From NCBI GenBank assembly GCA_018261905.1, contig JAGTRU010000009.1, positions 124,001 through 188,000 on the forward strand: DNA of 64,000 nucleotides. Direction: 5' to 3'. Below are positions 1-20,556 of this stretch, in pieces. A program made the position numbers and the translations under genes. Numbering within the stretch: the stretch's first letter is position 1; every line of letters starts with the position of its first letter. The notes beneath the pieces were generated by a model. The model worked only from the letters and a program-made list of their open reading frames with translations, was not told the origin of the DNA and did not search any database. Source of the DNA: Pseudomonadota bacterium (GTDB lineage Bacteria > Pseudomonadota > Gammaproteobacteria > Burkholderiales > Rhodocyclaceae).

Positions 1-3000
1 GTTGCCCTTGGTGCTGGCCAGCCCGGCCGGCGTCGGGTCGATCCAGTCGAGATTGCCGAGCTGGTCGACACCGAGATTGCTCGGCGCACTTGGCAGCACA
101 TCGTTCGGATGGAACAGGAAGGGGCGCATGAAGTCGTTTTCTTCATGGCCGAGAATGTGGCAGTGCCAGACATATTCGTTGTCGTATTGGGCGATGGCGT
201 TGGCCACGAACCTCGGGTTATTGGTCTGCGGGTCGATCTGCGTGAAACCCAGGGTCGAGCCGAGCGGTTGCGACGGGTCCATCGGCCGGCTGCTCTGCGG
301 CAGGCCGAAGGGAGCCAGCGGCCGCTTGGCCTTGACGGCGACGAGAATGTCTTCCAACGGGTTCATCTTGACCGTTTCTTTCCAGCCCTGTTCGTTGTCG
401 GCCGGCGGCTTGACGGTGCCGTCCCAGCCGACGCGATTGATCACCTGGACATTGACCAGGTGGAAATGCACCGGGTGGGTGTCGACGCCGTTGTGGGTGA
501 TTTTCCAGATTTGCGTTTCGTTGTCGGCAATGCTCTCGGTCGCCGGGTCGACGTAGCCGAGGGGGATGGTGGTCTGGGTCAGGGCGCTGGTGAAGGGCAG
601 TTCGACGCCGAGCGTGGCATTCATGCGGCCGTAGATCGGTTCGAAGAGCTCCTGGATGGCCTTGTTCTGGACCGGCAGCGAGACCGTTGCGCTGGTCGCC
701 ACCGACGCCGTCGCCCCGATGCCGCCGCCACCGCTGAAGGTGATCTGCGGTGCCGAGGTGTAACCGGAGCCGGGACTGGTCAAGGTCAGGCCGCTGATTT
801 TTTTCGATACCGGGTCCACTGTCGCCGTGGCGCTGGCCTTGGCATTGCCGGGCACGGTCAGGTCGACGCCGCCATTGAAGACGACGGTCGGCGTCGAGGT
901 ATAGCCGGTACCGCCGCTGGTCAGGGTGATGCTGCTGATGGTCTGGCCCGGCGAGGTCGGGGTCCAGTTGAAATTGGGCTGGGTGATCGAGCCGGTGGCG
1001 ATCTTGCCGTAATTGTCGGCGTCGGCCGTGCCGAAAGCCGCGTTATAGACCGATTCGGGAACCACCGGTCGCTCCTGGCTGGCGCCGTAAGCCGCCGGCA
1101 GGGCGGTGTTCAGCGCATTCAGATTGAAGGCCGGTGTTGCCGTGCCGCCCTGGGGTATGGCCTGCACCTTGATCTGCAGCATGGTCCGGGTATTCGGGCC
1201 GTAGCCGGGGAGGGTGTCGTGGGCGCCACCTTCTCCGGTCTGGTCGCCATTGCCGGTGAAGTAGTCGATGCGCGGGTCGAAAGCCGGCACCGGGGCCGGG
1301 GCGTCGTTATAGAGGATCAATGTCTGCCCGGCATAGGGCGAGAAATCGACGATGATGTCGGCCCGTTCGGCCGGTCCCATGTAGAGGCCATGGTCGAGGA
1401 CATTGAGGACGGTGATGCTGCGCCGGTTTGCCTCGTAGGTGACCGGTTGCGGCGGAATGACCACGGGTTTGGGCAGGATGCCGCCTTCGTTGCCGATCTG
1501 GATGATGGCCGGGCCGACCAGGCTGGGGTCGGGCACGCCGCCGGCCCGCCCGTCGGTCGGCCAGGTCGGTGGATAACTGGGGTTGGGAATGGCCGCGACC
1601 ATTTTGACTTCCTTGTCGAAGCCCGGATTGATGGCGTGGCTGACCGGGTCGATGACGGGGATGGTCGGGTCGGTCTTGAACAGGTTGAGATTGATGAAGC
1701 GATCGTTGGCCGCGTTCAAGACCCGGAAACGATAGGCCTTCGGTTCGACGGACAGCGTCGGGTAGGCCGTGCCGTTGATGACCGGCGTATCCATGAAGGC
1801 TTCCGGCGTCGTCGAGGCATCGCCGTATCCGCCGGAGGGCAGCGAATACTGGGCGGGGAACACCGGCCAGAACCAGGGCCCCCAGTCCCAGCGGCCGACC
1901 GGGTTGGTGCCGTCGATCGAATTCGGGTCCTGGTTGGTTTCATAAACGTGCGGGAACCACAGGTCGCCTTCCTGGCCCCAGTGCGTGGTGTCCCACTTGG
2001 CATCCTGCTGGGCGATGTCCTTGGGGACGAAGGTTTTGTCCTGGATGACCAGCGGTATCTGCTCGGCCGGTATCTGGCCGCTGCTGACCAGCGCCTGTTC
2101 GACGGGGTCCTGGATCAGGTAGCCGGCGGCCATGCCGGCATAGACGTTGAGGCGGGTCAGGCCGAGCGAGTGATCGTGATAGAACATCAGGCGGGCGCTG
2201 AGGTTGTTGGGGAAATAGAGCGTCGTCGAACCGGGACCGGGGTCCGGCATGTCGGGAACGTTGCGGCTGCTGACCCCCTTGCCCATGGTCGTGCCGTTGG
2301 CGTCGAGCACGGTAGCGTAGGCGGTGGTCTCGCCGGCCGGGGCAATCCACTGGTGCGGCGTGCCGTCGCTGATCCACGGCGTGTCGCCGCCATGCCAGTG
2401 CACGGCGGCGCGGTTTTCGGTATAGCTGGTGAGGCCATCGGGACCGAGGCCGGCACCCGGCAAGGTCTTGTCTACCGGGATGAAGAGATCGCCGGCGAGG
2501 CCAAGCGGCAGGTAGTTGGTGAATTTGATGCGGACGGCCGTGCCGCGCTGGGCGACGATCAGCGGGCCGAGGTAATGCGGCTTGTCCACCGCGAACACCG
2601 GCGCCCCGCTGCGATCGAGGATCGGCGTGCCGTCCGGGTAGCTGAGCGGCAAATGCTTGCCGGGATTGGTCGGCGTGCTCAATTGCACATAGCCGCGCAG
2701 ACGGGTCGGCTTGACCAGATCGCTGTGCATTTTTTCGCTGTATTCGACGACGGCGATCTCGTAATAGTCGTCGGCGGTGCTGTTGCCATTGCCATCCACC
2801 CACTTTTCCGGACTGCCGATGGGGATGTACTGGCCAAGCAGATTGGCCTTGGCCTCGCCGAGGCCGGGCAGGGCGTCGACAAACTTGCGCAGGGCGGTGC
2901 CGGTATCGATCAGCAGCGGCGTCGCGCTGCCGGTGGCCGGGTCGACGACGGTGCCGCCCAGCGGGTCCGGACGCAGGCCGGAGGGGCTGTTGGCGTAGAA

Positions 3001-3150
3001 GGTCTGAACCTTGATCGGGGCGCCGGTGATGTCGATGTTGTCACCCCAGCCGGCCCCGGCGTGGGCCAGGTGTACGGAGGCGGGTGACCCCAGGCTGAGA
3101 AGCACGGCCAAGGTGATTTTGTTCAGTTTGAATTGCTTGTGGTCTGACAT
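1..3150 (-). CDS. large multicopper oxidase, C-terminus cut by window edge
   Basis: The frame is open from the ATG at 3150 to base 1, 1050 codons without a stop. Residues 1-33 look like a Sec signal peptide (cut after AHA); there is no twin arginine. Copper motifs are all present: HWHGG near residue 251, YHDHSLG near 325, HPVHFH near 890 and WHCHILGHEENDFM near 995. The family is CotA/bilirubin-oxidase-like laccases, but it is about twice their usual length. Around residues 735-810 two copies of a glycine-rich repeat (GGTGYTSTP and GSGYTSAP) are inserted before the last cupredoxin domain. After the last copper motif, the PSAPSNL segment resembles the start of a fibronectin type III domain, so the protein continues past the window. 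Role: oxidation of an unknown substrate with O2 outside the cytoplasm; Mn(II) or phenolics are possible but not shown. Confidence 0.9.
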   Translation of the reverse strand, partial: MSDHKQFKLNKITLAVLLSLGSPASVHLAHAGAGWGDNIDITGAPIKVQTFYANSPSGLRPDPLGGTVVDPATGSATPLLIDTGTALRKFVDALPGLGEAKANLLGQYIPIGSPEKWVDGNGNSTADDYYEIAVVEYSEKMHSDLVKPTRLRGYVQLSTPTNPGKHLPLSYPDGTPILDRSGAPVFAVDKPHYLGPLIVAQRGTAVRIKFTNYLPLGLAGDLFIPVDKTLPGAGLGPDGLTSYTENRAAVHWHGGDTPWISDGTPHQWIAPAGETTAYATVLDANGTTMGKGVSSRNVPDMPDPGPGSTTLYFPNNLSARLMFYHDHSLGLTRLNVYAGMAAGYLIQDPVEQALVSSGQIPAEQIPLVIQDKTFVPKDIAQQDAKWDTTHWGQEGDLWFPHVYETNQDPNSIDGTNPVGRWDWGPWFWPVFPAQYSLPSGGYGDASTTPEAFMDTPVINGTAYPTLSVEPKAYRFRVLNAANDRFINLNLFKTDPTIPVIDPVSHAINPGFDKEVKMVAAIPNPSYPPTWPTDGRAGGVPDPSLVGPAIIQIGNEGGILPKPVVIPPQPVTYEANRRSITVLNVLDHGLYMGPAERADIIVDFSPYAGQTLILYNDAPAPVPAFDPRIDYFTGNGDQTGEGGAHDTLPGYGPNTRTMLQIKVQAIPQGGTATPAFNLNALNTALPAAYGASQERPVVPESVYNAAFGTADADNYGKIATGSITQPNFNWTPTSPGQTISSITLTSGGTGYTSTPTVVFNGGVDLTVPGNAKASATATVDPVSKKISGLTLTSPGSGYTSAPQITFSGGGGIGATASVATSATVSLPVQNKAIQELFEPIYGRMNATLGVELPFTSALTQTTIPLGYVDPATESIADNETQIWKITHNGVDTHPVHFHLVNVQVINRVGWDGTVKPPADNEQGWKETVKMNPLEDILVAVKAKRPLAPFGLPQSSRPMDPSQPLGSTLGFTQIDPQTNNPRFVANAIAQYDNEYVWHCHILGHEENDFMRPFLFHPNDVLPSAPSNLGVDQLGNLDWIDPTPAGLASTKGN

Positions 3151-3704: not shown

Positions 3705-3833
3705 GTGAGCATCTTCGTTGAGATCATTCCAGCGCTGTCTGCAGCCTCGGCTGTCGCCCCCTGCCGCCTTTTTCCCCGGTGCCAGCGCGCGGCCGGGCCG
3801 GGTCTGGCGTTGCCGGCGAGTTGGTCGCGATGA
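3705..3833 (+). CDS. 42-codon leader ORF coupled to sensor kinase
   Basis: A GTG start at 3705 follows a good ribosome-binding site (GAGGGGA) and opens a 42-codon frame ending in TGA at 3831-3833. That stop overlaps the ATG of the downstream kinase (ATGA at 3830). The kinase itself has no good ribosome-binding site, so the small frame probably delivers ribosomes to it by translational coupling. The predicted peptide starts MSIFVEIIPALSAAS and has two Cys. No family is recognised; the peptide itself may have no function. Confidence 0.45.
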   Translation: MSIFVEIIPALSAASAVAPCRLFPRCQRAAGPGLALPASWSR

Positions 3834-5191
3834 CCGGTCCGCTCCTGCCTTCTGGCTCGCACGCCAGTTCGGTGCGGGTATTCCGCAGCTTCAACCTGAT
3901 CAGTTTCATCACCATCGCGCTGGCCGGAATCATCCTCGCCCTTTGTTTCCGCTATGTCTCGATCGAGAGCATCACGCGCCAGAGCGAAGCCAGCAACCTG
4001 GTCGTGGCGCAGGCCTCGCGGCATGCCGCGCACGAGGATATCGCCGGTTTCCTGGCGCGCCAGGAAAGCGATCCGGCCGAAGTGTTCCCGCCAGCGATCG
4101 CCGCGGCCTTTTACGATCTGGTCAAGGACACCAAGGTGCGCAAGGTGAAGATCTACGATCGCTACGGCAACGTGGTTTTTTCGACCCAGGGCTCGGAAAT
4201 CGGTCGTCATCAATCCGCCAATGCCGGGGTTGTCGCCGCCCTCGAGGGCGGCGTCACCAGCAAACTGATCTATCGCGATGCCTTCAATTTCCTGGATGGC
4301 ATTACCGCCGAGGATAATTTCGTCCAGACCTATCTCCCGGTACAGGTCGAACACCAGGGTAAAGCGGTCGGCGTCTTCGAAATCTACACCGACGTTTCCG
4401 CCATGGTGGCACTCAGTGTCAATGCGCAGATCATCGTCGCGCTGACCTCGATCCTCGTCATGCTCATGCTTTATATCCTGCTCCTCGCCATCGTGCGGCG
4501 TATTCAGCGCATCATCGTCGTTCAGCAGGATGCGCTGGAGGAGCGGTCGGAACTGCTGGCGGCGCTTTCCACCCGCATGCTGAATGTCCATGAAAGCGAG
4601 AACCAGCGCCTGGCGGCCGAACTGCACGAGCGCGTGGCGCAGACCATCGCCGCCGTCAAAATGGGCGTCGAAGGGGCGATCCAGAATATCCGCAACGGTC
4701 GCGACTCCCTGCCGATGATGGAAACGATGGTGCCTTTCCTGCAGGCGGCGACGCAGGAGGTCCGTCTCATCGCCCTCGGCCTGTGCCCGCCCAGCCTGCA
4801 CGAACTCGGCCTGATCCCGACCCTGCAATGGCGGAGTCGGGATTACATGGAAAAGCATCCGGAGATCAGCGTCGATGTCGAATTGAGCGCCGCCGAGGAA
4901 AATATTCCGGAAGTCTTGCGCGCCATCATCTATCGCGTCGCGGACGATGCCTTGGGGGCACTGGCCGGCAATCCGGCGATCGACCGGGTGACGCTTTCCC
5001 TGCACAGCGATGCGCGGCGAATTGTCCTCGCCATCGGCGACGATGCGCGCGGCGATGGGGGCACGACCGCCGACGTCAAATCGCCCAGCTATCTCGGGGC
5101 GCGCGAACGGACCCTGTTGTCCGGCGGCAAATTTTCCCTGCTCCACAACGCCTGGGGCGGCATCACCATGCAGGCCGTCTGGTTGCGCTGA
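3830..5191 (+). CDS. NarX/DegS-type sensor histidine kinase
   Basis: 453 residues. A first membrane helix lies at about 21-42 and a second at about 200-222, with a periplasmic sensor segment of about 155 residues between them. A HisKA_3 dimerisation domain follows, with the phospho-acceptor His near 266 in the motif AAELHERVAQ. The C-terminal ATPase domain is weak: the N-box reads YRVADDALGAL with no Asn where ATP-binding kinases have it, and the G1-like stretch is GDDARG; the GARERTLLSGG segment fits the G2 region. The ATG at 3830 is chosen because it overlaps the stop of the coupled leader frame; a GTG at 3779 is the alternative. It converges with the NarL-type regulator at 5201-5860, its likely partner. 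Confidence 0.82.
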   Translation: MTGPLLPSGSHASSVRVFRSFNLISFITIALAGIILALCFRYVSIESITRQSEASNLVVAQASRHAAHEDIAGFLARQESDPAEVFPPAIAAAFYDLVKDTKVRKVKIYDRYGNVVFSTQGSEIGRHQSANAGVVAALEGGVTSKLIYRDAFNFLDGITAEDNFVQTYLPVQVEHQGKAVGVFEIYTDVSAMVALSVNAQIIVALTSILVMLMLYILLLAIVRRIQRIIVVQQDALEERSELLAALSTRMLNVHESENQRLAAELHERVAQTIAAVKMGVEGAIQNIRNGRDSLPMMETMVPFLQAATQEVRLIALGLCPPSLHELGLIPTLQWRSRDYMEKHPEISVDVELSAAEENIPEVLRAIIYRVADDALGALAGNPAIDRVTLSLHSDARRIVLAIGDDARGDGGTTADVKSPSYLGARERTLLSGGKFSLLHNAWGGITMQAVWLR

Positions 5192-5200: not shown

Positions 5201-5860
5201 TTACAGCGAAACGATGCCTTTGCTGATGGCGTAGGCGGTCAGCATCGAGGCATTGCGGACATTGAGCTTGCTCATCAGGCTGGAGCGATGTTTTTCCACG
5301 GTCTTGATGCTGATGCACAGGTAGTCGGCAATGTGCTTGTTGCCATAACCTTCGGCGACCAGCTTGAGCACCTGTTTCTCGCGCAGGGTCAGGGTATCCC
5401 AGGTGACGACGGTCTTCTCGGCCGGGGGGGCGGCGGACAGGTAGCCGGGGAGCAATCGTTCGGAGACTTCCGGGCTGAGATAGAGCTTGCCGCCGAGCAC
5501 CGTGCGGATGGCCATCTTCAGTTCGTCGTGGCTGGCCTCCTTGAGTATGTAGCCGGTGGCGCCATTGCGCAGGGCGACCTGGATATATTCATCGGTCTTG
5601 TGCATGGTCACCACCAGGATCTTGACGTCCGGCATCCGCTTCTTGATCTCGCTGATGGCTTCCAGGCCGTTGCTGCCCGGCATCGACAAATCCATCAGTA
5701 CCAGGGTCGGGTTCAGGGCGCAGGCCAGCCGGACGATGTCCTTGCCGTTCTCGGCTTCGGCGACGATCTCGATATCGGTTTCGGCCGACAGCAGGGCCCG
5801 TAGCCCGGCCCGGAACAAGGCGTGATCTTCAGCGATAAGAATCGTGTGCTTGATTGTCAT
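5201..5860 (-). CDS. NarL/FixJ-family response regulator
   Basis: 219 residues. An N-terminal receiver domain carries the acidic pair E11/D12, the phospho-acceptor D57 (VLMDLSMPG) and the conserved Lys in YILKEAS. A LuxR-type helix-turn-helix follows at the C-terminus (LTLREKQVLKLVAEGYGNKHIA, then SIKTVEKHRSSLMSKL). The start at 5860 follows a strong GGGAGGA site 8 bases upstream, better than the longer frame starting at 5890. Its gene faces the HisKA_3 kinase gene with a 9-base gap, so the two probably form a two-component pair. Target genes are not shown by the sequence; the shared palindromes at 3281 and 9547 are possible sites. Confidence 0.92.
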   Translation of the reverse strand: MTIKHTILIAEDHALFRAGLRALLSAETDIEIVAEAENGKDIVRLACALNPTLVLMDLSMPGSNGLEAISEIKKRMPDVKILVVTMHKTDEYIQVALRNGATGYILKEASHDELKMAIRTVLGGKLYLSPEVSERLLPGYLSAAPPAEKTVVTWDTLTLREKQVLKLVAEGYGNKHIADYLCISIKTVEKHRSSLMSKLNVRNASMLTAYAISKGIVSL

Positions 5861-6343
5861 CGGTGTGTCCTCCCTAGTCTTATCGAGCAAGTTTAGTAAA
5901 ACCTTGCCGCTAAGAACCCCCTTTTCTCAGTTTGCTCAGCGAAGCCCGGCGCTAGATTACACCGAAATATTTATCCGTTATTGGTGAATTGGGCGGGCGG
6001 CCATTCCTGCCGGCATGAGCGAGGCGTCGGCTGCTCCGCAAAAACACCCGGTAGTCGGGCCGGTTATGCGCTGCGGGCCGAGTTCCGCGGCATTGACCGC
6101 GATTCGAGCTAACAGTGCTCGGCTCAGTGGGTAACGGCGTGCTTCGCAATTCTGGGGAATGGCCGCAAAAAATGGGGGGCTTCCCCGCTCGTCGCCCTCG
6201 CCAATCCGTTGGCCTTGGCCGGAAAATCGGTTACCGGTTGTTGGCACGCAGTATGCATCTCGCGCTGCAAGCACTTCCATCGACATTTCCCGCTGAACAA
6301 GAGTTTGCGATGGGTGAAGTGAACGTCAAAGGAGGAACCTAAA
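5861..6343. other. intergenic region with sigma-54 promoter
   Basis: The 483 bases between two divergent genes hold no convincing coding frame. They contain the promoter of the regulator gene on the minus strand (not resolved), the -24/-12 promoter at 6242-6257, and a TGGGGAA half-site at 6153-6159 with a TTCCCC half-site at 6181-6186 about 60-90 bases upstream of it. Confidence 0.6.
6242..6257 (+). promoter_or_regulatory. sigma-54 (-24/-12) promoter
   Basis: TGGCACGCAGTATGCA matches the RpoN consensus TGGCAC-N5-TTGCW with one mismatch in the -12 box and keeps the strict GG-to-GC spacing. It lies about 87 bases before the start codon of the gene at 6344, preceded by a 5' UTR of about 75 bases. 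Confidence 0.75.
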
Positions 6344-6670
6344 ATGGGCCGCATACTGACCGAACAGGAACTGCAACTCGAAACCCGGGCTTTCGTCGGC
6401 ACCGGCGGGACCAGCGCCAATAGCCGGAGCAGCGGTTTTCTTCCGGCTTTTCTGGACACCTGCACGCAGGCTGTCTACCTCTCCCGCTATTGCGATGGCC
6501 GGCCGGCGCCCTTTCATCTGATCGATGGTTTGCCCGATGCCGTCGTCTTGAGTCGTAGCGCCTCGGGCAAAGTCGAAGCGGTCAAGCCGGGCGTTGTTTC
6601 GGGCTTTGTTCTCGACGGGCAGTTTTATAGCCGCGAGGAATCGGCGAAGCGGGTTGCCGATAGGCGTTGA
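6344..6670 (+). CDS. hypothetical small protein, sigma-54 controlled
   Basis: 108 residues, start at ATG 6344 behind a perfect GGAGG site. No signal peptide or membrane helix is seen. The sequence is composed like a folded cytoplasmic protein, with motifs AFVGTGGTSAN, YLSRYCDGRPAPFHLIDGLP and VVSGFVLDGQFYSREE. I do not recognise a named family. It is the first gene after a clear -24/-12 promoter and sits among copper-oxidase and two-component genes, so it is probably co-regulated with them. Confidence 0.7.
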   Translation: MGRILTEQELQLETRAFVGTGGTSANSRSSGFLPAFLDTCTQAVYLSRYCDGRPAPFHLIDGLPDAVVLSRSASGKVEAVKPGVVSGFVLDGQFYSREESAKRVADRR

Positions 6671-6908: not shown

Positions 6909-7295
6909 ATGCGGAAAGCTTGTGCCGGAGAAATTTGCGAACATCGGCACCGGCCGACATGGCCGCTCCACCACTTGTTTGTCGATGGCCGCTGGCCGGT
7001 TGCCCGGCGAGGCGCCACGGCGCTGGCGGCGCCGATCACCCCGCGTGTCGTCCCGGTGCCGAGCCCCGCCCCCATTTCTGTGTCTCCTCCCCACGTGCCG
7101 CGGGCGATTTCCCCCGCTCAGCTCCCGGCCTTCCGGTCGATGCCCCTGGTCAAGGAAGCGCACGCTCCGGCAGCGCTCTGCAGGGCCGGCTTGTCCACTT
7201 CTCCGCCGCTATGGCCGGCGCCGGGCACGGTGTTCGTGAAATCGGGGCGGGCGAGTTGGGGGCGTTCTGAGCAGGCAATAATTCTGTTGCAATGA
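6909..7295 (+). CDS. hypothetical proline-rich protein
   Basis: 128 residues from ATG 6909, which follows a strong GGGGGAGAGG ribosome-binding site; an in-frame ATG at 6873 lacks one. The first 30 residues contain CAGEICEHRHRPTW and LHHLFVDGRW; the middle (about 40-80) is rich in Pro, Val and Ala. No family is recognised. Support comes from the ribosome-binding site and from the -24/-12 promoter 70 bases upstream; the composition is less typical of a real protein than its neighbours, so it could be a short-lived or non-conserved frame. Overlapping frames in this stretch lack comparable signals. Confidence 0.5.
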   Translation: MRKACAGEICEHRHRPTWPLHHLFVDGRWPVARRGATALAAPITPRVVPVPSPAPISVSPPHVPRAISPAQLPAFRSMPLVKEAHAPAALCRAGLSTSPPLWPAPGTVFVKSGRASWGRSEQAIILLQ

Positions 7296-7316: not shown

Positions 7317-7332
7317 TGGCACGAGAGGTGCA
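7317..7332 (+). promoter_or_regulatory. sigma-54 (-24/-12) promoter
   Basis: TGGCACGAGAGGTGCA: perfect -24 box, GTGCA as -12 box, correct spacing. It lies 72 bases before the ATG of the receiver gene at 7405 and probably drives 7405-9358. Confidence 0.75.
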
Positions 7333-7404: not shown

Positions 7405-7830
7405 ATGCCTCCACCTCCGAATATTCTGATTGTCGAAGATGAGCGGGTCCTGGCCGAAAACATCATGGAATTTCTCGGGCGCCGGGTACCCAACGTGCGT
7501 CTGGTATCCGATGGCGAACATGCGGTCGAAATGCTGAATCACTTTTCGCCAGATGCCATTGTTATGGATTATCGACTGCCCGGGATGAATGGTTTGGATA
7601 CCTATAGCGAGATGCTCCGCCGCAACCCGAAGAAAATTGATTGCGTAATGATTACCGGCGATCCGGCGGAGGATTTGGCGCAAAGCGCCAGTGATCGGGG
7701 CATCCGGCACGTATTGTCCAAACCCTTCAGTTTTGCCGAGTTGCTGGAAAGCCTGGAGCCACCGGTGGCGGGCAGTACGCCGGAAAGTGGAGTAACTAGA
7801 AGCACGGCGCCAAAGGAGAATAAAAAATGA
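7405..7830 (+). CDS. single-domain response regulator (receiver)
   Basis: 141 residues, almost all one CheY-like receiver: E11/D12, phospho-acceptor D55 in IVMDYRLPGMNG, Thr in MITGDPAED, and Lys in VLSKPFSFAELL. There is no output domain; the last 25 residues are polar and probably disordered. The N-terminus (ILIVEDERVLAENI) resembles the receiver of the NtrC-like activator at 17726, suggesting a recent common origin. It begins an apparent operon with the membrane protein and outer-membrane barrel genes downstream. It may act as a phosphate sink or bind a partner in the kinase cascade of this cluster. Confidence 0.88.
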   Translation: MPPPPNILIVEDERVLAENIMEFLGRRVPNVRLVSDGEHAVEMLNHFSPDAIVMDYRLPGMNGLDTYSEMLRRNPKKIDCVMITGDPAEDLAQSASDRGIRHVLSKPFSFAELLESLEPPVAGSTPESGVTRSTAPKENKK

Positions 7831-11616: not shown

Positions 11617-11655
11617 GAGCCCCCGGAGAGTCATTGGTTTGCGCTCTCCGGGCTC
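11617..11655 (+). terminator. intercistronic hairpin, possible attenuator
   Basis: GAGCCCCCGGAGAG pairs with CTCTCCGGGCTC around a 13-base loop, just after the oxidase stop. There is no T-run, so it may only reduce read-through or protect the upstream mRNA, giving more oxidase than SCO protein. Confidence 0.4.
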
Positions 11656-11686
11656 CGTCCTTCGTCCTTCAACGCGGAGAATGATC

Positions 11687-12283: not shown

Positions 12284-12319
12284 GGGTGAGCCCTCCGCGC
12301 TATGGCCTGGGGAACGATC

Positions 12320-14173
12320 ATGAAGACTCGGGAAAAACTGATCGAGAAGACGATCGATCTGCATCGGCAAATTGTCAGCGAGAGACTAAGCCGTCGCGAC
12401 TTGTTGAAAATGGGTTTGCTGGGGGCGGGTAGCGGTCTGTTGTTGCCGATTTCCGGCTTGAGTCTGCGGGCCGTCTGGGCGAGCGACAGTTGTCCGCAAC
12501 CGGGCAAGGATCTGAGCAGCCCGCCGACCCGACCATGGCTCGAAGAAATGCCCCGGCTGCCGGAGAAAAAAACGGTGCCGGACAACGATCCGGCGGCGAT
12601 CAGCCGCGGCGACGGCGGTGGGCCACCCGGTCCCGACCCGGTCGGTACCCTGCGCGGTGGCGACTCCAAGGTTCTGCTCCGCCACAATTTCCCGGAACTG
12701 TTCCGGCCCTATCCGGCCGGTGCGACGCCGCTGGCCTTTTCCCACCAGGCCTGGAGCAAGTACCCGCCGCAGCAATGGTATGAAATGCGGGTCAGGCAAT
12801 TCAATCACGTCTGGCATCGCGATCTGCCCGCCGGCAACGGCGGCCAACCGGCCTGGGGCTTCGACGGCCAGTTTCCGGGGCCGATGTTGCGGACCCACTA
12901 TGGGGTAGCGCATTTCTTGCGGGTGCATAACGACCTGCCGGCGCGCAACCTGGGTTTTGGCATCAACCAGATCAGCACGCATCTGCACAATGCCCATACG
13001 CCGGCGGAAAGCGATGGCCACCCCCTGTTCACCAACTATCCCGGGCATTACTACGACTATCACTACCCCAATGTCTGCGCCGGCGCCACGCACGATGGCG
13101 GCTACGGCGATGCCAGCGAGGCGCTGGGTAGCATGTTCTACCACGACCACCAACTCGATTTCACGGCGCAGAACGTCTACGCCGGCCTGGCCGGCATGCA
13201 CTGCATCTACGATGCGCTGGATGCCGGCGATCCCGATGAAAGCGCCGGGCTGCGCCTGCCCTGCGGCGAAAATTTCGAATTCGATGTCGGCCTGGTCTTT
13301 CACGACCGGCAGTTCGACCCGCAGGGCCAAGACTTCTTCCCGCTGACCTGTCTCGACGGGGCGATCGGCGACAAGATGACGGTCAATGGCAAGATCCAGC
13401 CGTTCTTCCCGGTCAAGCGCCGCAAGTATCGTTTCCGCCTGGTCAATCTCGGGCCTTCCCGGCTGTACCGCTGGTTCCTGCGCGACGAGACGGCGCGCCG
13501 CTATCTTCCCTTCACGGTCATCGCCAATGACGGCAACCTGTTGCCGGCACCGCTCCAGGCGGCCAGCCTGGCCCAGGATGTCGGCGAGCGCTTCGACATC
13601 GTCGTCGATTTTGCCGGCTATCAGCCGGGGCAGGAACTTGTCCTGTACAACCGCGCCGAGCAGGTGAGCGGCCGGGGGCCGACCGGGAGTCTGCTCAGTC
13701 CGGGCTTTGCCGTTCTCAAGTTCATCGTCGATTCGGCGACGGTCGCCGACCACAGCGAGGTCCCGGCCAAGCTACGCCCTTTGCCGGCCGGCAGCCCGCC
13801 GGCTGCGGCCTGGCGGCGCTGGGAGTTCGGGCGCAGCGGCGGCGAGTGGGTGGTCAACGGCGAGCCCTATAGCCGTAACCTGATCCAGGCGACGATGGCC
13901 GAAGGCGCGGCCGAGCAATGGGCCTTGATCAACAAGGGCGGATCCTGGACGCACCCGATCCACGCCCATTTGGAGGAGGTCCGTCTCCTCAGTTTCAACC
14001 GTGCCCCACCCCCGCCGCTGCTGGCCGGGCGCAAGGACATGATCAGTCTGGGGCCGAACGCCGAGGCGGAGATTTATCTGCGTTTCCGTGACTTCAAGGG
14101 GCAATACGTCATGCACTGTCATAACGTCGTGCATGAGGACCACGCCATGATGATCAACTTTAAAGTCGTCTGA
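12320..14173 (+). CDS. Tat-exported multicopper oxidase, paralogue
   Basis: 617 residues and clearly a tandem paralogue of the product of 9742-11613: same Tat signal type (SRRDLLKMG), same ordering of motifs STHLHN, YHDHQLD, HPIHAH and MHCHNVVHEDHAMM, and long identical stretches such as LPCG-EN/DNFEFDVGLVFHDRQFDP. The ATG at 12320 follows GGGGA by 6 bases and starts 36 bases after the SCO gene; an upstream in-frame ATG at 12302 lacks a site. All copper ligands appear intact, so it should be active. It may oxidise a related substrate or form a heteromer with the first copy. Confidence 0.93.
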   Translation: MKTREKLIEKTIDLHRQIVSERLSRRDLLKMGLLGAGSGLLLPISGLSLRAVWASDSCPQPGKDLSSPPTRPWLEEMPRLPEKKTVPDNDPAAISRGDGGGPPGPDPVGTLRGGDSKVLLRHNFPELFRPYPAGATPLAFSHQAWSKYPPQQWYEMRVRQFNHVWHRDLPAGNGGQPAWGFDGQFPGPMLRTHYGVAHFLRVHNDLPARNLGFGINQISTHLHNAHTPAESDGHPLFTNYPGHYYDYHYPNVCAGATHDGGYGDASEALGSMFYHDHQLDFTAQNVYAGLAGMHCIYDALDAGDPDESAGLRLPCGENFEFDVGLVFHDRQFDPQGQDFFPLTCLDGAIGDKMTVNGKIQPFFPVKRRKYRFRLVNLGPSRLYRWFLRDETARRYLPFTVIANDGNLLPAPLQAASLAQDVGERFDIVVDFAGYQPGQELVLYNRAEQVSGRGPTGSLLSPGFAVLKFIVDSATVADHSEVPAKLRPLPAGSPPAAAWRRWEFGRSGGEWVVNGEPYSRNLIQATMAEGAAEQWALINKGGSWTHPIHAHLEEVRLLSFNRAPPPPLLAGRKDMISLGPNAEAEIYLRFRDFKGQYVMHCHNVVHEDHAMMINFKVV

Positions 14174-14194: not shown

Positions 14195-15163
14195 ATGAAC
14201 CGACTTCGACAGCTTGCCGGCGCCTCGCTCCTTTATTGGTTGGCGCTGACGGTGGGGGCGGCAGCCCCGGGCTGGGCAGCCGGGGAGTCTGGCGCGACGT
14301 CGGTTGGCGAGCCGACGAGCGAAACACTGGCGGCTACGGCCGAGAGCTTGGCGGAGGTGTCCAATAAAAATCGGAGCGAGGTGGCGGCGCTCTTTGCCCG
14401 AGCTAACGATGCCTTGGCGCAACGCGACTATGGCGCTGCCGAGCAGGCTTTCCGGCGGGCTGCCGAGTCCGGTTATGCGCCGGCGCAATCGGCCCTGGCC
14501 GGCCTCTATCTGAGCGGCAAGAACGGCGCGGCCAAGCCGGAAGCGGCGCTCAAGTGGTATCGGCGGGCGGTCGAACAGGGCGACGCCGAGGGGCAAACCG
14601 GGCTCGGCTTGATGTATGCCCGGGGCCAGGAGGTCGAACGAGACGATGAACTGGCCGCCCGCTTGCTGTACCAGGCGGCAGAACAGGGCAATCCGCTGGC
14701 GCAAAGCAGTCTGGGTATGCTCTATCGGCTCGGTCGGGGCGTGGAGGGGGATGCAAGTATCGCCGCCGAGTGGTTCCGGCTGGCCGCCATCCAGGGCGAG
14801 ATTGGCGCCCAGAACGAGATCGCCGCCGCCTTCCGCGACGGACAGGGGGTCGAGGCGGATGCGCAGGAAGCCGCCTGGTGGTACCGGCAGGCCGCCGAGA
14901 AGGGCGATTCCGAGGCGCAGGCCAATCTCGGCGTGATGTACCGACAGGGGCTGGGCGTCCATCAGGACGAGAACGAGGCCGTACACTGGTTCCGCCAGGC
15001 CGCCGAACGGGGGAATGCCCTGGCCCAGTACCAGTTGGGTATCAGCTACAGCGAGGGGCTGGGTCTCGAGGTCGATCCGGAAGAAGGCAGAAAGTGGCTG
15101 GAGGCGGCAGCCAGCCAGGGGCAGCACGAAGCGCAGGAATATTTGCGGAGCGGCGTTCGTTAG
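14195..15163 (+). CDS. Sel1-repeat (SLR) periplasmic protein
   Basis: 322 residues. A Sec signal peptide ends near residue 29 (GWAA). From about 70 to the end come seven Sel1-like repeats of about 36 residues, with the pattern AxxxLGxxYxxGxGVxxDxxxAxxWYRxAAExG. Such solenoids bind other proteins. The gene follows the second oxidase by 21 bases and is probably in the same operon, so it may scaffold or bind the exported oxidases; that role is inferred. Confidence 0.88.
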   Translation: MNRLRQLAGASLLYWLALTVGAAAPGWAAGESGATSVGEPTSETLAATAESLAEVSNKNRSEVAALFARANDALAQRDYGAAEQAFRRAAESGYAPAQSALAGLYLSGKNGAAKPEAALKWYRRAVEQGDAEGQTGLGLMYARGQEVERDDELAARLLYQAAEQGNPLAQSSLGMLYRLGRGVEGDASIAAEWFRLAAIQGEIGAQNEIAAAFRDGQGVEADAQEAAWWYRQAAEKGDSEAQANLGVMYRQGLGVHQDENEAVHWFRQAAERGNALAQYQLGISYSEGLGLEVDPEEGRKWLEAAASQGQHEAQEYLRSGVR

Positions 15164-15196: not shown

Positions 15197-15877
15197 ATGC
15201 GTCGTACATTCGTCGCGCTATGCGCCGCCCTACTCGTCGCCCCGCCGCTGCAGGCGGCGGGCGATCTGACGGCCTTGCTCGGGATCCAGGAGGAGTGTGT
15301 CGAGGTCGGCGCGATATCCTTCGGTGCTCACGGTCGCTGGGCGGATTGCCAGGTGAGCCGGGGGCGCTGGGTGTCCACCATCGATCTGGTCGATATGTAC
15401 CAGGCCCAGTACTGCCTGGGCGATGGTGGCGAAACCTGTCAGCAGCGGGCGCTGCTGCTTTTCGGCAATCGCGCCTACACGCCGACCGCCCGACTGATGC
15501 TGCAGCGCCTCGATCCGGGCGGCGCCGAATACGACGATCCGCAGGTCGTGGTCAATGAGTACGGGCGCATCCTGACCGTGACGGCCCGCCTGCCCGACGG
15601 GACGAGAAGCAGCGATTACTACCTCTGGCAGTCCGGGCAGTGGCTTCGCCTCGATGCCAGGCACTGGCTGCAAGACTTCGTCAAGGGCCTGCCGGCCGGC
15701 GTCCGGGTGGGTGAGGTGGAGTTGCCCGATATCGATACGATGAGTGCCAAGGTCACCTTGTACCGCCCGGGAAATGCCGATTGTTGTCGCGACGGCGAGG
15801 TCGCCACGGTCGCTCTCGGCCTGCGGCAGCAACGCTTTTCGCTCAAAAAGCCGGGGATCGGGAAAACGCGCCACTAA
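15197..15877 (+). CDS. hypothetical exported protein
   Basis: 226 residues from ATG 15197, which follows AAGGAGA; an in-frame start at 15164 lacks a site. A Sec signal peptide ends near residue 20 (LQAA). The mature part has six or more Cys (ECVEVG, WADCQVS, YCLGDGGETCQQ, DCCRDGE) arranged as if in disulfides, and a C-terminal strand-rich part. I do not recognise a family. It closes the apparent oxidase operon, 33 bases after the Sel1 gene. Confidence 0.75.
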   Translation: MRRTFVALCAALLVAPPLQAAGDLTALLGIQEECVEVGAISFGAHGRWADCQVSRGRWVSTIDLVDMYQAQYCLGDGGETCQQRALLLFGNRAYTPTARLMLQRLDPGGAEYDDPQVVVNEYGRILTVTARLPDGTRSSDYYLWQSGQWLRLDARHWLQDFVKGLPAGVRVGEVELPDIDTMSAKVTLYRPGNADCCRDGEVATVALGLRQQRFSLKKPGIGKTRH

Positions 15878-16227
15878 CTACGGGGATTCGGGCGATTTCG
15901 CGGGCCTTGTGCGGGGCCGCAGGGGCGCCCCCGAATCGCGCAAAAGGCAGGGCTGGCGGCGGATTTGGTGGGTTTGTGGGATATATTCCCGCGTAATCGC
16001 TGGTGTCGGGTTTACCCGCAACGAAAATACAGGGTTCACTGTATTAGGGTTTGGGTCAACGGGAGTCTATTCTGCTCCCATCGATGTGACGACTGGCGGC
16101 AGAGTAGGGTTTGTGGAGTGCCGCCCAATCGTTGGGAACGTTTCCCACAACGTGGGCGACATTAGGGGTAATTCGTCATTTGTACCAGATGCAGAAACCA
16201 TATGTTTCTGGTATCGGGGAGTGTCTT
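15878..16227. other. intergenic region with several inverted repeats
   Basis: The 350 bases hold no gene. A GATTCGGG/CCCGAATC stem at 15885-15937 may end the upstream operon. Three further inverted repeats precede the kinase gene: AATACAG-N6-CTGTATT at 16026-16045, TGGGAA-CGT-TTCCCA at 16133-16147, and CAGAAAC-CATAT-GTTTCTG at 16192-16210. The last ends 5 bases before the GGGGA ribosome-binding site. No -24/-12 promoter with a proper GC is seen here. Confidence 0.6.
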
Positions 16228-17721
16228 ATGTATCAGAAACTACGTTTGGTTTTTGGACGCTGGCTTCCCTACGGGGATTTCGAGGATAAATCGAAAGTTG
16301 TCGCGGCACAGGGGCCGCGACCGTTCAATCTGTTGCGCTGGTTTTCCTTGCTCAGTTTCGCCCTGGTGGCCGTGATCAGTGTCGGATTCGCGTCGACGCT
16401 GACGCATTTCCTGACCCGGGAAATCCTGCAGCGCGACGCCTTGTTAACGACTCAGTTCGTCCACAGCATCGTTACCGTCCAGAATCAGCAGGCACGCCTG
16501 GGGCGCAGCTTCACCCTGGGGGGGATACTCGATGAGCGTGTCAATGTCGCCACGTTGGGGATTGACCCGCGGGAAGCGGCGTCGGTGCGCAGCCAGTTCT
16601 ACGACCATATCAAGTTGCTGCCGGACGTGCTGCTGGCCAATGTTTTTGCTGCCGATCGAAAAATTATCTGGTCGACCAACCCAGCCCTGATCGGCAAGTT
16701 TGATACGAACAACGACGAACTGGAAGATGCCATCAAAGCGCGGAGCATGGTGGCCACCAATTATCTCGACCAGGAAAATCACGGCGAAAAGCAACACAAG
16801 GACGAGCAGTTTTTCGCCGCCGAGCCGAAGAAATTCTTTGTCGAAACCTACATGCCCCTGTTGAATGGCGGGGGCGACGTGCTGGCCGTCGTCGAAATCT
16901 ACAAGGAGCCGGAGTCCCTGCTCGATGCCGTTAAACGTTGCCGCCAGTTAGTCTGGGCGTGTACCGCGCTGGGCATGATCTTTCTCTATCTGGCGATGTT
17001 CTGGATCATCCGGCGGGCCGACCGGACGCTGGACGATCAGCAACGGCAGATCCTGGAATCGGAAACCTTGTGCGTGGTCGGCGAAATGTCGGCCTCGGTC
17101 GCGCACGGCATCCGGAATCCGCTGGCCTCCATCCGTTCGAGCGCCGAACTGGCACTTGAGGGCGACCTCAAGTCGGTGCAGAAAAACGCCAACGACATCA
17201 TTTCGCAGGTCGACCGCCTGAGCAAGTGGGTGCGCGACCTGTTGGTCTTTTCGCGGCCGGTCGCCGGAGAAAACCAGGTCATGGACGTGCTCGCCCTGAT
17301 CGAAGATTGCCTGCCGAATTTTGCCGCGCAACTGGAAAAAAACGGTATCAATTGCTCCGTCATTCGCCCGTCCGGCACTGTGCCGCGGGTCAAGGGCAAT
17401 CGCTCGCTGGCGACGCAGGCGCTGGCCAGCGTCATTTCCAATGCGATCGAGGCGATGCCGGGCGGCGGTTGCCTGAAAGTGGAATTGCAGGTCGCGGAAA
17501 GGGAACACTTGGTCAGCCTGGTGGTTTCCGACACCGGCATCGGCATGTCGGAAACCCAGATGGATCTGGTCTTCAAACCTTTTTACACCACCAAGCGCAA
17601 TGGCCTGGGGCTGGGCATGGCGCTCGTCAAACGCATCATGGAACGTTTTGGCGGCGCCATTCGTCTACATAGCGGCGAAGGCAAGGGGACCCGTGTCAGC
17701 CTGATTTTCAACTCCGATTGA
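16228..17721 (+). CDS. NtrB/PrsK-like sensor histidine kinase
   Basis: 497 residues. Membrane helices lie at about 39-60 and 238-262, with a periplasmic sensor segment of about 175 residues between them. Then come the H-box (VAHGIRNPLASIR, His 293) and an ATPase domain with N-box (ISNAIEAMPGG), G1 (DTGIGM), F-box (FKPFYTTK) and G2 (GLGLGMALVKRI). The His-Gly in place of His-Glu is a small variation. The ATG at 16228 lies 7 bases after GGGGA; longer frames run from 16111. It ends 4 bases before the NtrC-like regulator gene, so the two form a two-component pair. The signal it senses is unknown. Confidence 0.92.
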   Translation: MYQKLRLVFGRWLPYGDFEDKSKVVAAQGPRPFNLLRWFSLLSFALVAVISVGFASTLTHFLTREILQRDALLTTQFVHSIVTVQNQQARLGRSFTLGGILDERVNVATLGIDPREAASVRSQFYDHIKLLPDVLLANVFAADRKIIWSTNPALIGKFDTNNDELEDAIKARSMVATNYLDQENHGEKQHKDEQFFAAEPKKFFVETYMPLLNGGGDVLAVVEIYKEPESLLDAVKRCRQLVWACTALGMIFLYLAMFWIIRRADRTLDDQQRQILESETLCVVGEMSASVAHGIRNPLASIRSSAELALEGDLKSVQKNANDIISQVDRLSKWVRDLLVFSRPVAGENQVMDVLALIEDCLPNFAAQLEKNGINCSVIRPSGTVPRVKGNRSLATQALASVISNAIEAMPGGGCLKVELQVAEREHLVSLVVSDTGIGMSETQMDLVFKPFYTTKRNGLGLGMALVKRIMERFGGAIRLHSGEGKGTRVSLIFNSD

Positions 17722-17725
17722 TGCC

Positions 17726-19138
17726 ATGACCCATTCTATTCTGATCGTCGAGGACGACGAGATGCTGGCCGACAACATCCGTCTCTATCTCGAACGCAAC
17801 CATTGGGAAGTCGAGGTCGCGCACAGTGCCGAGGCCGGACTGAAGCTGCTCGAGAGCACCCACCCGGATGTCGTGCTGACCGACCACATGCTGCCGGGCA
17901 AGACCGGCGTGCAGTTGATCGCCGGCGCCCTGGCGATCAATCCGCAGATCAAGATCGTCATGATGACCGGCGAGGGCAGCGTCCAGGTTGCCGTCGATGC
18001 GATGAAGGCCGGGGCCTGCGACTATCTTTCGAAGCCGGTGTCGCTGGCCGAGCTGAAGCTGGTCCTCGAGAAAGCGCTCGATCAGGCACATATGGAAAAC
18101 ACCTTGTCGGTGTTCCAGAGGAAGCAGTCGCGCGGCATGTCGATGGCGTCGATCATCGGCAATTCGCCGGCCATGCAGAACCTCAAGGCCAAGGCGCAGC
18201 AGGTGCTGGCGGCGGAACGACGGATCAGCGACGGCGATCTGCCGGCCATCCTGATTACCGGCGAAACCGGCTCGGGCAAGGAAATGCTGGCGCGGGCGCT
18301 GCATTTCGACGGGGTGCGCTGCGACCGACCGTTCATCGAACTGAATTGCGCCTCACTGCCGGCCAATCTGCTGGAGGCCGAACTTTTCGGCCATGAGCGC
18401 GGGGCCTTCACCGATGCCAAGGATAGGCGCATCGGTCTGGCCGAAGCGGCGGATGGCGGGACGCTGTTTCTCGACGAAATCGGCGAAATCGATCTGTCGA
18501 TCCAGGCCAAGCTCTTGAAGCTGCTGGAAGAGAAAACCCTGCGCCGCATCGGCAGCGTGCGCGAGCACAAGGTGAATATCCGCATCATCAGCGCCACCAA
18601 CCGCGATCTGGAAAAAATGATCCGCGAGGGCAGTTTCCGCAGCGACCTGTTTTTCCGCCTGCGGGTCATTACCCTGACCATGCCGCCGTTGCGCACGACC
18701 GGCGACGACATCCTGAACCTGGCCAATTTCTACCTGCAATTGCATTCGCGGCGCTACGGCAAGAAAAACCTGCGTTTTTCGGCCGAGGCCGAAGAGATGA
18801 TGCAGTGTTACGGCTGGCCGGGCAATGTCCGCGAAATGAAAAACATGCTGGAGCAGACCGTATTGCTGGCCGACGGCGAAGTGATCGGCTCCGATCAACT
18901 GGCCATCTGCCCCGGCTTGCTCCGCGAGCCGAGCGAAGTGCGTTACCCAGCGTCCGCCAATTCGGCGCCAGCCGTGCGCAGCACGGGCCGGGTCTCCGAT
19001 GTCGAACGTGACCTGGTCTTGAAAACTCTCGAAAAGACCGACTGGAACGTTTCGAAATCGGCCAAGCTGCTCGGCTTGTCACGTGACATGCTGCGCTACC
19101 GGATCGAGAAGTATCAATTTGTTGCCCCCCAGGAGTGA
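17726..19138 (+). CDS. NtrC-family sigma-54 activator
   Basis: 470 residues: receiver (D10, D11, phospho-acceptor D53, SKPVS Lys) at 1-120; AAA+ domain at about 145-375 with Walker A GETGSGKE, loop 1 FGHERGAFTDA, Walker B GTLFLDEIGE, sensor I (ISATNRDL) and Arg finger region (FRSDLFFRL); Fis-type helix-turn-helix at the end (WNVSKSAKLLGLSRDML). The sigma-54-contacting loop reads GAFTDA where GAFTGA is usual; this variant exists in working activators. It partners with the kinase upstream and is the best candidate activator of the four -24/-12 promoters at 6.2-9.6 kb. Confidence 0.94.
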   Translation: MTHSILIVEDDEMLADNIRLYLERNHWEVEVAHSAEAGLKLLESTHPDVVLTDHMLPGKTGVQLIAGALAINPQIKIVMMTGEGSVQVAVDAMKAGACDYLSKPVSLAELKLVLEKALDQAHMENTLSVFQRKQSRGMSMASIIGNSPAMQNLKAKAQQVLAAERRISDGDLPAILITGETGSGKEMLARALHFDGVRCDRPFIELNCASLPANLLEAELFGHERGAFTDAKDRRIGLAEAADGGTLFLDEIGEIDLSIQAKLLKLLEEKTLRRIGSVREHKVNIRIISATNRDLEKMIREGSFRSDLFFRLRVITLTMPPLRTTGDDILNLANFYLQLHSRRYGKKNLRFSAEAEEMMQCYGWPGNVREMKNMLEQTVLLADGEVIGSDQLAICPGLLREPSEVRYPASANSAPAVRSTGRVSDVERDLVLKTLEKTDWNVSKSAKLLGLSRDMLRYRIEKYQFVAPQE

Positions 19139-19230: not shown

Positions 19231-20556
19231 ATGGGACAGGGCGGCCGCATCCTTGTCGTCGATGATGATCCGGGGATGTTGCATCTCATCGGCTTACGCC
19301 TGGCCAGCGCCGGTTATCAGGTCACTACGGCCGAGTCGGGCGAGGCGGCCTTGCTCGGCTTTCGCGAGCATCTGCCGCAACTGGTGATCACCGATCTGTA
19401 CATGAGGGGCATGGACGGGCTGGCCCTGCTCGATCATCTGCAGGCCGCGGCGCCCAGTGTGCCGGTGATCATGCTGACCGCCCACGGCTCGATTCCGGAT
19501 GCGATCAGCGCAACGCAACGCGGCGTCTTCGGCTTTCTCACCAAGCCGTTTGACGGCCAGGAATTGCTGCAACGGGTGGGTGAGGCGATCCGCCTTTCGC
19601 CCCTGCTTAATCCCGAACACGTCTCCGCGCAGTGGCGCAAGGAGGTGGTCAGCGTTAGCGTGCGCATGGAGGAAGCGCTACGCCAGGCCCTGCGCATCAG
19701 CCTGGAAGGCAAGGCCGCCCTGCTGGTCGGTCCGGGCGGCTCGGGCAAGGCGACGCTGGTCCGCGCCATCCAGCGGGCCGGCGCGCGCTCGGCCGGGCCG
19801 CTGGTGCATCTGCTCGCGGCGGACTACCCGCCGTCCGTCCAGGAGGCTATGCTGTCGCCGCATGATGCCGAGGGGGTCTGGCAGCGGGCAGCGGGGGGCT
19901 TGGTGTACCTGGCCGAGGTGGGGGCCTTGTCGCCGGCCGCCCAGGCTCGCCTGTTTGCCGTACTGCTGGCGCAAATGCAGGCGAGCGATCCCTTATACCG
20001 GCTGGGTCAGGCGAGTCAGCCGGAGGCGGTGCCTGACGTCCAGATCATCGCCTCGACCCCCCGCTCGCTCGAGGCGGCCGTCGCCGACGGGCGTTTCCGT
20101 CGCGACCTGTATTATTTGTTGAGTAAAGTCAGCCTGCAGGTGCCGTCGCTGAGCGAACGCCCGGAAGATATTGCGGTTCTCGGCCAGCATTTTCTTGCCG
20201 CGATCCGGCCCGAACTCGGCCTCCGTCTGGCGCCGGGGGCGCTGCAGGCGTTGCAGGCGGCGCGCTGGCCGGACAACGTCCGGCAACTCCGCCTGGTGCT
20301 CGAACAGGCCGCGGCGACCAGCCTGACGCCGGTGCTCACCGAGACGGCCGTGCGCCGGGTCATTCGTCAATATGCGGCGGAAAGCCTGGCTGGCTTTGAC
20401 GATGCGCGGCGTGATTTCGAGCGCGATTATCTGATTCGTCTATTGCAAACGACGGCCGGCAATGTGACGCATGCGGCCCGGATCGCCCGCCGTAACCGGA
20501 CGGAGTTTTATAAACTGTTGGCCAGACACGGCCTGGATCCGGTCGATTTCAAGTAG
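19231..20556 (+). CDS. GlrR/YfhA-like regulator with degenerate AAA+ domain
   Basis: 441 residues. The receiver is intact (D11-D13, phospho-acceptor D55, LTKPFDG Lys). The central domain aligns with sigma-54 activators but is eroded: Walker A is GPGGSGKA, Walker B is GGLVYLAEVG with Ala in place of the catalytic Asp, and the ELFGHxxGAFTGA loop is missing altogether (QEAMLSPHDAEGVW stands there). The Arg-finger region (RFRRDLYYLL) and the C-terminal helix-turn-helix (AARIARRNRTEFYKLL) typical of GlrR/YfhA are kept. It probably binds DNA without activating sigma-54, as a repressor, competitor or sigma-70 regulator. It starts 93 bases after the activator gene. Confidence 0.88.
   Translation: MGQGGRILVVDDDPGMLHLIGLRLASAGYQVTTAESGEAALLGFREHLPQLVITDLYMRGMDGLALLDHLQAAAPSVPVIMLTAHGSIPDAISATQRGVFGFLTKPFDGQELLQRVGEAIRLSPLLNPEHVSAQWRKEVVSVSVRMEEALRQALRISLEGKAALLVGPGGSGKATLVRAIQRAGARSAGPLVHLLAADYPPSVQEAMLSPHDAEGVWQRAAGGLVYLAEVGALSPAAQARLFAVLLAQMQASDPLYRLGQASQPEAVPDVQIIASTPRSLEAAVADGRFRRDLYYLLSKVSLQVPSLSERPEDIAVLGQHFLAAIRPELGLRLAPGALQALQAARWPDNVRQLRLVLEQAAATSLTPVLTETAVRRVIRQYAAESLAGFDDARRDFERDYLIRLLQTTAGNVTHAARIARRNRTEFYKLLARHGLDPVDFK

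Follow-up and report, generated by a model that had tools for sequence, protein, structure and literature searches.

What do the multicopper oxidases (MCOs) encoded at this locus act on, and do the genes around them form one system? The window analysed here is a 64,000-nt stretch (G000:C38:124001-188000) of a Rhodocyclaceae genome. The part examined, positions 1 to 20556, carries three MCO genes, a gene for a SCO-like copper protein, and genes for six two-component proteins, all six of which were recognized by Pfam and are listed below. The initial annotation read it as one sigma-54 regulon of unknown purpose. It was found that the oxidase cut by the left edge of the window opens a mof operon, which corrects the latter point. 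The stretch is probably one half, with the regulatory and accessory genes, of an island for extracellular metal oxidation, the metal most likely being Mn(II). By sequence, the mof operon with its adjoining type II secretion genes lies beside a cassette of MCO1, SCO, MCO2, a Sel1 protein, a secreted protein, a kinase, and an NtrC-type regulator.

The mof operon at the window edge

1 to 3150, minus strand: N-terminal part of a mofA-like gene, which starts at 3150 and runs leftwards off the window; its stop codon lies 1,686 bases outside
left of the window, downstream of mofA: mofB (FKBP), mofC (cytochrome c), a small exported protein, a second SCO, and type II secretion genes
3779 to 5191, plus strand: membrane histidine kinase (HisKA_3), divergent from mofA
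5201 to 5890, minus strand: LuxR-type response regulator

Completed beyond the left edge, the MofA homologue is 1611 amino acids long. It has four copper motifs (HWHGG, YHDH, HPVHFH, and HCHILGHEENDFM) and C-terminal fibronectin-III repeats (Pfam fn3 and Cu-oxidase_2), as expected of the large MCOs of the MofA family. A plus-strand frame at 109-3087 was rejected as a gene; it matches no Pfam family, and the real gene is on the minus strand. The three MCOs of the initial annotation are thus all present, by Pfam and by homology to MofA, but the first is encoded on the minus strand, with its 3' end outside the window. mofB and mofC lie immediately downstream of mofA, the arrangement that marks a mof operon, and the second SCO has the canonical CxxxC. 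The secretion genes comprise gspG, gspF, gspE, a secretin gene, and genes of pseudopilin-like proteins.

Published systems are cited here from excerpts of the papers. The mof operon of Rubrivivax sp. A210 consists of mofA, mofB, mofC, a copper metallochaperone gene, and an exported-protein gene (PMC8218464). The mofA-mofB-mofC order, the SCO, and a small exported protein are common to the present operon and the mof operons of A210 and Leptothrix discophora. Four of the five A210 genes have sequence homologues here, while the exported protein is alike in kind only. In A210, the SCO gene directly follows mofC (L088), whereas here the exported-protein gene sits between them. Since homologues of mofA, mofB, mofC, and SCO surround mofA in A210, a manganese oxidizer, the purpose is most likely extracellular Mn(II) oxidation, a role assigned to this mof operon by homology. 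Unlike the published operon, the present one is accompanied by type II secretion genes, a divergent kinase gene, a LuxR-type regulator gene, and the MCO1 cassette. The A210 genome also has secretion genes and a LuxR-type regulator gene upstream of mofA; the excerpt of PMC8218464 makes no mention of them, and "type II secretion" has 0 occurrences in it.

Is this arrangement common among mofA loci? A profile scan of named genomes for MofA confirmed 277 stretches, and 78 loci were kept, including those of A210, L. discophora, and Ferriphaselus sp. R-1. The counts are taken as they stand, with flanks that end at contig ends included; L061, L040, and L159 denote one record. Homologues of mofB and mofC occur together at 22 of the 78 loci and just one of them at 8 more. 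Nine loci have gspE or gspF with at least 50% identity (L058, L061, L063, L064, L065, L070, L077, L088, and L089); they belong to Ferriphaselus, Rhodocyclales, Rubrivivax (two), Methylotenera, and four betaproteobacterial metagenome-assembled genomes (MAGs). A few further loci have a gspE of 22-45% identity, and L093 and L103 have a secretin alone (31-34%). The two regulatory genes next to mofA also have relatives at such loci. A 37% relative of the HisKA_3 kinase is divergent from mofA in a Rhodocyclales MAG (L040, identical to L061). The LuxR-type regulator has relatives of 53% (Ferriphaselus), 52% (Methylotenera), and 36% (A210) at mof loci, and in that Rhodocyclales MAG a 64% relative lies about 14 kb from mofA.

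Several observations on MofA relatives may be recorded here. One genome with several mofA-like pieces has a copy whose copper ligands are lost at two HxH motifs in the alignment (L041, G350:C381). Some records that carry MofA relatives (L069-L135) are labelled Actinomycetes, Chloroflexota, Bacillus/Neobacillus, and Bathyarchaeota. Two deltaproteobacterial mofA loci (L098 and L108) have a kinase and an NtrC-type regulator nearby, the latter 33-35% identical to the window NtrC and outside its GAFTDA clade (see below). The present genome has a fourth PF07731 oxidase, of 625 amino acids and with an RR signal (L233, G000:C26:95001-110000), which adjoins a mofC-like stretch (40%) and a SCO close to the mof SCO (60%).

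The MCO1-SCO-MCO2 cassette

9742 to 11613, plus strand: MCO1 (Cu-oxidase_2 and Cu-oxidase_3), with RR motif LTRRDLLK and copper motifs
11639 to 12283, plus strand: SCO1/SenC protein (Pfam SCO1-SenC, 4e-12), with Tat-type start MDRRSFLG
12302 to 14173, plus strand (also delimited as 12320 to 14173): MCO2 (Cu-oxidase_2 and Cu-oxidase_3), with RR motif LSRRDLLK
14195 to 15163, plus strand: Sel1-repeat protein (Pfam)
15197 to 15877, plus strand: secreted-looking protein of no known family
16111 to 17721, plus strand (also delimited as 16228 to 17721): membrane histidine kinase HK_B (HisKA)
17726 to 19138, plus strand: NtrC-type sigma-54 activator with a GAFTDA loop
19231 to 20556, plus strand: NtrC-like regulator NtrC2, without a GAFTGA-type motif

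The SCO-like protein and the Sel1 protein of the initial annotation were recovered by Pfam, and its Tat signals on two oxidases and the SCO were seen again; the RR motifs and the copper motifs of MCO1 and MCO2 were read by eye and not with a predictor. MCO2 is a paralogue of MCO1 (64% identity over 633 amino acids), and the two are 617-623 residues long. The best solved relatives of MCO1 in the PDB are bilirubin oxidase (3.6e-64), whose alignment covers MCO1 residues 156-620, and CotA (about 1e-45), with CueO-type oxidases weaker than bilirubin oxidase; MCO2 is placed through its identity to MCO1. Thus, both belong to the bilirubin oxidase/CotA type of MCOs and are predicted oxidases. Homology and copper motifs are common to them and bilirubin oxidase/CotA, while here there are a Tat-type signal, a SCO partner gene, and two-component control.

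The cassette SCO departs from the canonical copper site, in that it has CxxxxC in place of CxxxC, with the distal histidine kept. Among 26 aligned SCOs (21 beside MCOs and 5 beside mof), CxxxxC is common only to this SCO and its Methylotenera orthologue (L152:5977-6498); 23 of the remaining 24 have CxxxC, and that of L057 has no cysteines. As to the regulators, NtrC2 has no GAFTGA-type motif, a looser pattern matching just an unrelated GNVTHA near its end; thus, it is probably not a sigma-54 activator. For the 15197-15877 protein, a single-sequence structure model was unusable (predicted local distance difference test, pLDDT, 35.9).

How is the oxidase-SCO pair distributed? I collected 26 MCO1-type loci, namely that of the window, 20 from genomes, and 5 plasmid loci picked from 15 listed. 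Several share one genome (G070 gives four) and are not independent, and the counts have no random-gene control. A contig-end fragment with two stops (L045) and weaker MCO1 matches in G448:C75, G464, G442, G465, G469, and G463 stand outside the 26. A SCO gene lies within about 1 kb of the MCO1-type gene on the same strand at all 25 judgeable loci, L044 being cut by a contig end; MCO1-type gene and SCO gene are separated by a small gene in L048, L254, L255, and one pair of L053. The tie between SCO and oxidase drawn in the initial annotation is thereby borne out. Its statement that no heme-copper oxidase is nearby holds for the ORFs (open reading frames) given to Pfam in and left of 1-20556 and is not established for the entire window.

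A MopA-like peroxidase flanks 6 of the 26 loci (L052, L055, L056, L153, L252, and L253), a dihaem peroxidase or homologue is found at 4 (L053, L152, L154, and L255), and mofA flanks 2 (the window and L156). On the Fuscovulum plasmid, genes annotated as type II secretion occur together with those of an MCO, a SCO, and a peroxidase; on the Limimaricola plasmid, a peroxidase gene is accompanied by MCO, SCO, kinase, and regulator genes. No annotated haem peroxidase of the MopA-like kind was found on the Skermanella, Comamonadaceae, and Paraburkholderia plasmids. Matches to PF03098 were obtained for 10 of 14 genomes that carry MCO1-type genes and for 0 of 14 well-known control genomes.

The fuller cassette is much rarer. 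In a Methylotenera MAG (L152), the genes are arranged as in the window, with MCO1 (74%), SCO (64%), Sel1 (51%), the secreted protein (50%), HK_B (52%), and NtrC (65%) but without MCO2; in this genome, mofABC, SCO, and secretion genes lie on a separate contig (L070). In the genome G002, the genes of the secreted protein, the kinase, NtrC, and MCO1 follow in this order up to the contig end, with a CusF-like gene within the cassette. The family of the 15197-15877 protein, used as a marker, occurs in 2 of 399 genomes of the order (the present one and G002) and is part of the cassette in all three genomes where it was found.

Sigma-54 sites and the GAFTDA-type regulators

6242 to 6257, plus strand: exact -24/-12 site before ORF 6344-6670
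6344 to 6670, plus strand: ORF of 108 amino acids, without a Pfam family or a relative in the plasmid collection
6823 to 6838, plus strand: exact -24/-12 site before ORF 6909-7295
6909 to 7295: ORF behind the preceding site, doubtful as a gene
7317 to 7332, plus strand: exact -24/-12 site before the receiver gene
7405 to 7830, plus strand: single-domain response regulator (receiver)
7827 to 8345, plus strand: ORF of 172 amino acids, no family over threshold
8363 to 9358, plus strand: secreted-looking protein of 331 amino acids with C-terminal Phe, candidate outer-membrane barrel
9595 to 9610, plus strand: weaker -24/-12-like site TGGCATAGATGCTGCT, 131 nt before MCO1 (10 of 400 controls)

Are these sites more than chance matches? 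The exact pattern TGGCACGN5TGCW occurs 21 times in the 4.92 Mb genome versus 5 times for a reversed control. Four of the 21 fall within 13.3 kb, one before gspG and the others at 6242, 6823, and 7317 of the window (binomial P about 3e-7; the interval was picked post hoc). Looser scans add nothing: with one mismatch, 6 sites were found in the window versus 3.21 expected, a number reached by 11 of 100 shuffles and thus not an enrichment, and with two mismatches the left flank (L009) has 6 versus 12.76 by chance, that is, fewer. Of these scans, the exact sites alone are informative. Three of the four promoters in the initial annotation are therefore exact sites, but the fourth, before MCO1, is weaker. 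The Methylotenera MCO1 orthologue has TGGCATATTTGATGCA at 134 nt upstream (28 of 400 controls), and the single exact site of that locus falls inside an ORF. In G002, MCO1 has an exact site about 500 nt upstream, in the interval that separates it from NtrC. With starts taken at the match start, the mofA gene of L. discophora has a weak site (24 of 400 controls), and those of four relatives have none. The outer-membrane barrel of the initial annotation was not confirmed, the 8363-9358 protein having no Pfam family over threshold and an unusable single-sequence model (pLDDT 30.0).

The window NtrC belongs to a clade (support 1.00) with five further members, all with G[AS]FTDA. The tree takes in 12 of the 29 PF00158 matches of the genome, and the window NtrC was matched at E 1e-105 in 7 of 369 genomes of the class, its own included. 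The further members are those of Methylotenera and G002, both within an MCO1 cassette, two from other contigs of the present genome (C26 and C43), and one from G950. Exact sites also follow the C43 and G950 regulators. The C26 regulator is 67% identical to the window NtrC; at a distance of 4.4 kb from it lies a MopA-like gene, with an exact sigma-54 site 122 nt before the start of that gene. The encoded peroxidase (L232, G000:C26:262001-280939) is at least 3137 amino acids long and runs off the contig; an animal haem peroxidase domain and RTX repeats mark it as MopA-type by domain content.

The surroundings of the two paralogous regulators are as follows. Within 8 kb of the MopA-like gene, L232 has the sister NtrC, a hybrid kinase, a LuxR regulator, and a ferritin-like protein. 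The C43 locus (L243, G000:C43:7001-26900) has a third kinase-NtrC pair of that type (40% and 53%) and an exact sigma-54 site before a 201-amino-acid ORF of no family. Elsewhere in the window, at 46880-47279, Rfam matched a cspA thermoregulator (95.2 bits).

This picture resembles the Mnx/Mco system of Pseudomonas. P. putida GB-1 has MnxG, McoA, MopA, and the sigma-54-dependent MnxR; a SCO gene follows mcoA; and an rpoN insertion in Pseudomonas MS-1 abolishes manganese oxidation, which is restored by complementation (PMC11409713). The mnxG and mcoA promoters have predicted integration host factor (IHF) and sigma-54 sites and are active solely with manganese and in stationary phase, while mopA never showed activity in the wild type (PMC11930936). 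In common are several oxidases including a MopA-like one, a SCO beside an MCO, a sigma-54 regulator, and its promoters; the NtrC-type regulator comes here with -24/-12 sites before oxidase genes that are exact for the MopA-like gene, weaker for MCO1, and absent for mofA. The two kinases plus regulator of the Mnx operon (mnxS1, mnxS2, and mnxR) are not found; instead, one kinase, NtrC, and then NtrC2 lie next to the oxidase genes, and MCO1 and MCO2 are of the bilirubin-oxidase-like kind. The Mnx system was compared by description. P. putida GB-1 is also known for an Xcm secretion pathway. Thus, the initial claim of a combination not described before stands for these oxidases, but a sigma-54 regulator and a SCO beside a manganese oxidase had been published for Pseudomonas (PMC11409713). 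Searches on mofA with type II secretion, mofA with mopA and mnxG, MCO with SCO and haem peroxidase, bilirubin oxidase with SCO1, and OmpB with type II secretion brought up no paper that, by its title or abstract, deals with the present combination. The general kind, i.e., a mof locus, a sigma-54 regulator, and a SCO beside a manganese oxidase, is already known; what varies is a bilirubin-oxidase-like MCO-SCO module that has a kinase and a regulator of its own.

Manganese, iron, or copper?

How might the parts work together? The substrate, the secretion route of MofA, and the regulon are what I infer. HK_B would sense an outside signal and phosphorylate the GAFTDA-type NtrC, which would activate three sets of sigma-54 promoters, namely those of the MCO operon, of the small leading genes, and of the gspG secretion operon; the MopA-like gene elsewhere would be driven by the paralogous NtrC or the same one. 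MCO1, MCO2, and SCO would be exported by Tat, and the SCO may load or repair the copper of the two MCOs. MofA would leave the cell via the adjoining type II system and oxidize Mn(II) outside, with mofA transcription more likely under the neighbouring HisKA_3 kinase and LuxR-type regulator. MCO1 and MCO2 may contribute another oxidation activity, either on Mn(II)/Mn(III) or as protection from copper or radicals.

Several results weigh against this reading. No -24/-12 site precedes mofA of the present genome (its score is reached by 373 of 400 control stretches), so that the single regulon of the initial annotation shrinks to a sigma-54-linked gene set with clustered exact sites. An exact site before MCO1 is absent in the window and in Methylotenera, and MCO1-type loci such as L046, L052, L054, L056, and L157 have no -24/-12 site. 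Two of the six clade members, the C43 and G950 regulators, have no recognized oxidase alongside. The small exported mof protein has no relative among the mof loci compared. The cassette is also rare. Its marker was found in 1 of 50 mofA genomes tested (Methylotenera), and G002 has the marker and no mofA match at E 1e-60; a cassette that always travels with mof is thereby ruled out. Among 30 mofA genomes searched for MCO1, 10 have a match at E 1e-20, only 5 of them below 1e-75, and A210 and Ferriphaselus are among those without a match. At E 1e-60, 9 of 300 genomes of the order and 1 of 150 of the family have an MCO1-type gene; mofA was matched in 1 of 300 of the order (E 1e-60) and 3 of 150 of the family (E 1e-40), the present genome being included in each count. 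The family counts rule out conservation in Rhodocyclales, the co-occurrence on which the initial annotation had staked its claim. These low counts indicate that the island is accessory and patchy, and the patchy spread would fit horizontal transfer. Finally, Mn(II) oxidation by the organism is a prediction from its genes, and MofA relatives in Fe(II) oxidizers together with Geobacter OmpB make iron a possible substrate (PMC5566968).

Does the island instead serve Fe(II) oxidation or other extracellular electron transfer, with an OmpB-like MofA and MofC passing electrons? This is the strongest of the alternatives, although an unlikely one. Ferriphaselus sp. R-1, an autotrophic iron oxidizer (PMC5566968), has a mof locus among the closest (best segment 69%) with secretion genes, and mofA is among the top expressed genes in Leptothrix ochracea iron mats (PMC11412304). 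Geobacter OmpB, a homologue of MofA, is required for the reduction of Fe(III) oxide; OmpB/MofA genes cluster with SCO and MofC, the functions of MofB and MofC are still to be demonstrated, and a reference title names OmpB secretion by an atypical type II system (all PMC5566968). OmpB of Geobacter sulfurreducens has in common with the present MofA the fibronectin domain and the SCO and MofC-like neighbours, but it has no mofB and acts in Fe(III) oxide reduction, and here the secretion genes adjoin mof. Against iron, the peroxidases at 6 of the 26 MCO1-type loci are of the MopA-like kind reported for manganese (PMC6247904), and the published sigma-54 control is that of manganese oxidation (PMC11409713).

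It is improbable, too, that the MCO1/MCO2-SCO cassette is a copper response, for periplasmic Cu(I) oxidation and copper delivery, and merely sits beside mof. The CusF-like copper-binding protein in the G002 cassette, the weaker CueO-type matches, and the mostly separate occurrence of mof and cassette would suit it. However, no copper pump or PcoB family was recognized among the window ORFs scanned with Pfam, peroxidases of the MopA-like or dihaem kind neighbour MCO1-type loci as counted above, and in this genome a sigma-54 site and a nearby sister regulator go with the MopA-like gene. A role of MCO1 and MCO2 as laccases that act on phenolics or humics, coupled to breakdown by way of Mn(III), is very unlikely; bilirubin oxidase and CotA as best solved relatives would suit it, but no aromatic-degradation family was recognized in the same scan, and CotA of Bacillus pumilus also oxidizes Mn(II) (PMC3618234), so that the family alone does not decide.

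Manganese oxidation therefore remains the preferred reading. Beyond it, I suggest tentatively, and with more doubt, that the Tat-exported bilirubin-oxidase-like MCO with its dedicated SCO may be an unrecognized enzyme module of bacterial manganese oxidation that, across alpha-, beta-, and gammaproteobacteria, would be found repeatedly next to MopA-type peroxidases, MofA, and type II secretion genes; here, a GAFTDA-type sigma-54 two-component family might jointly control the module, the secretion operon, and the MopA-like gene. The genome bears on two questions, what bacteria gain from manganese oxidation and how the work is divided among several oxidases in one cell. It joins MofA, two bilirubin-oxidase-like MCOs, a MopA-like peroxidase, sister sigma-54 regulators, and secretion genes. 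Thus, the idea of a single programme is testable by one rpoN or NtrC deletion, and the MCO-SCO module is a defined candidate for biochemical assay.

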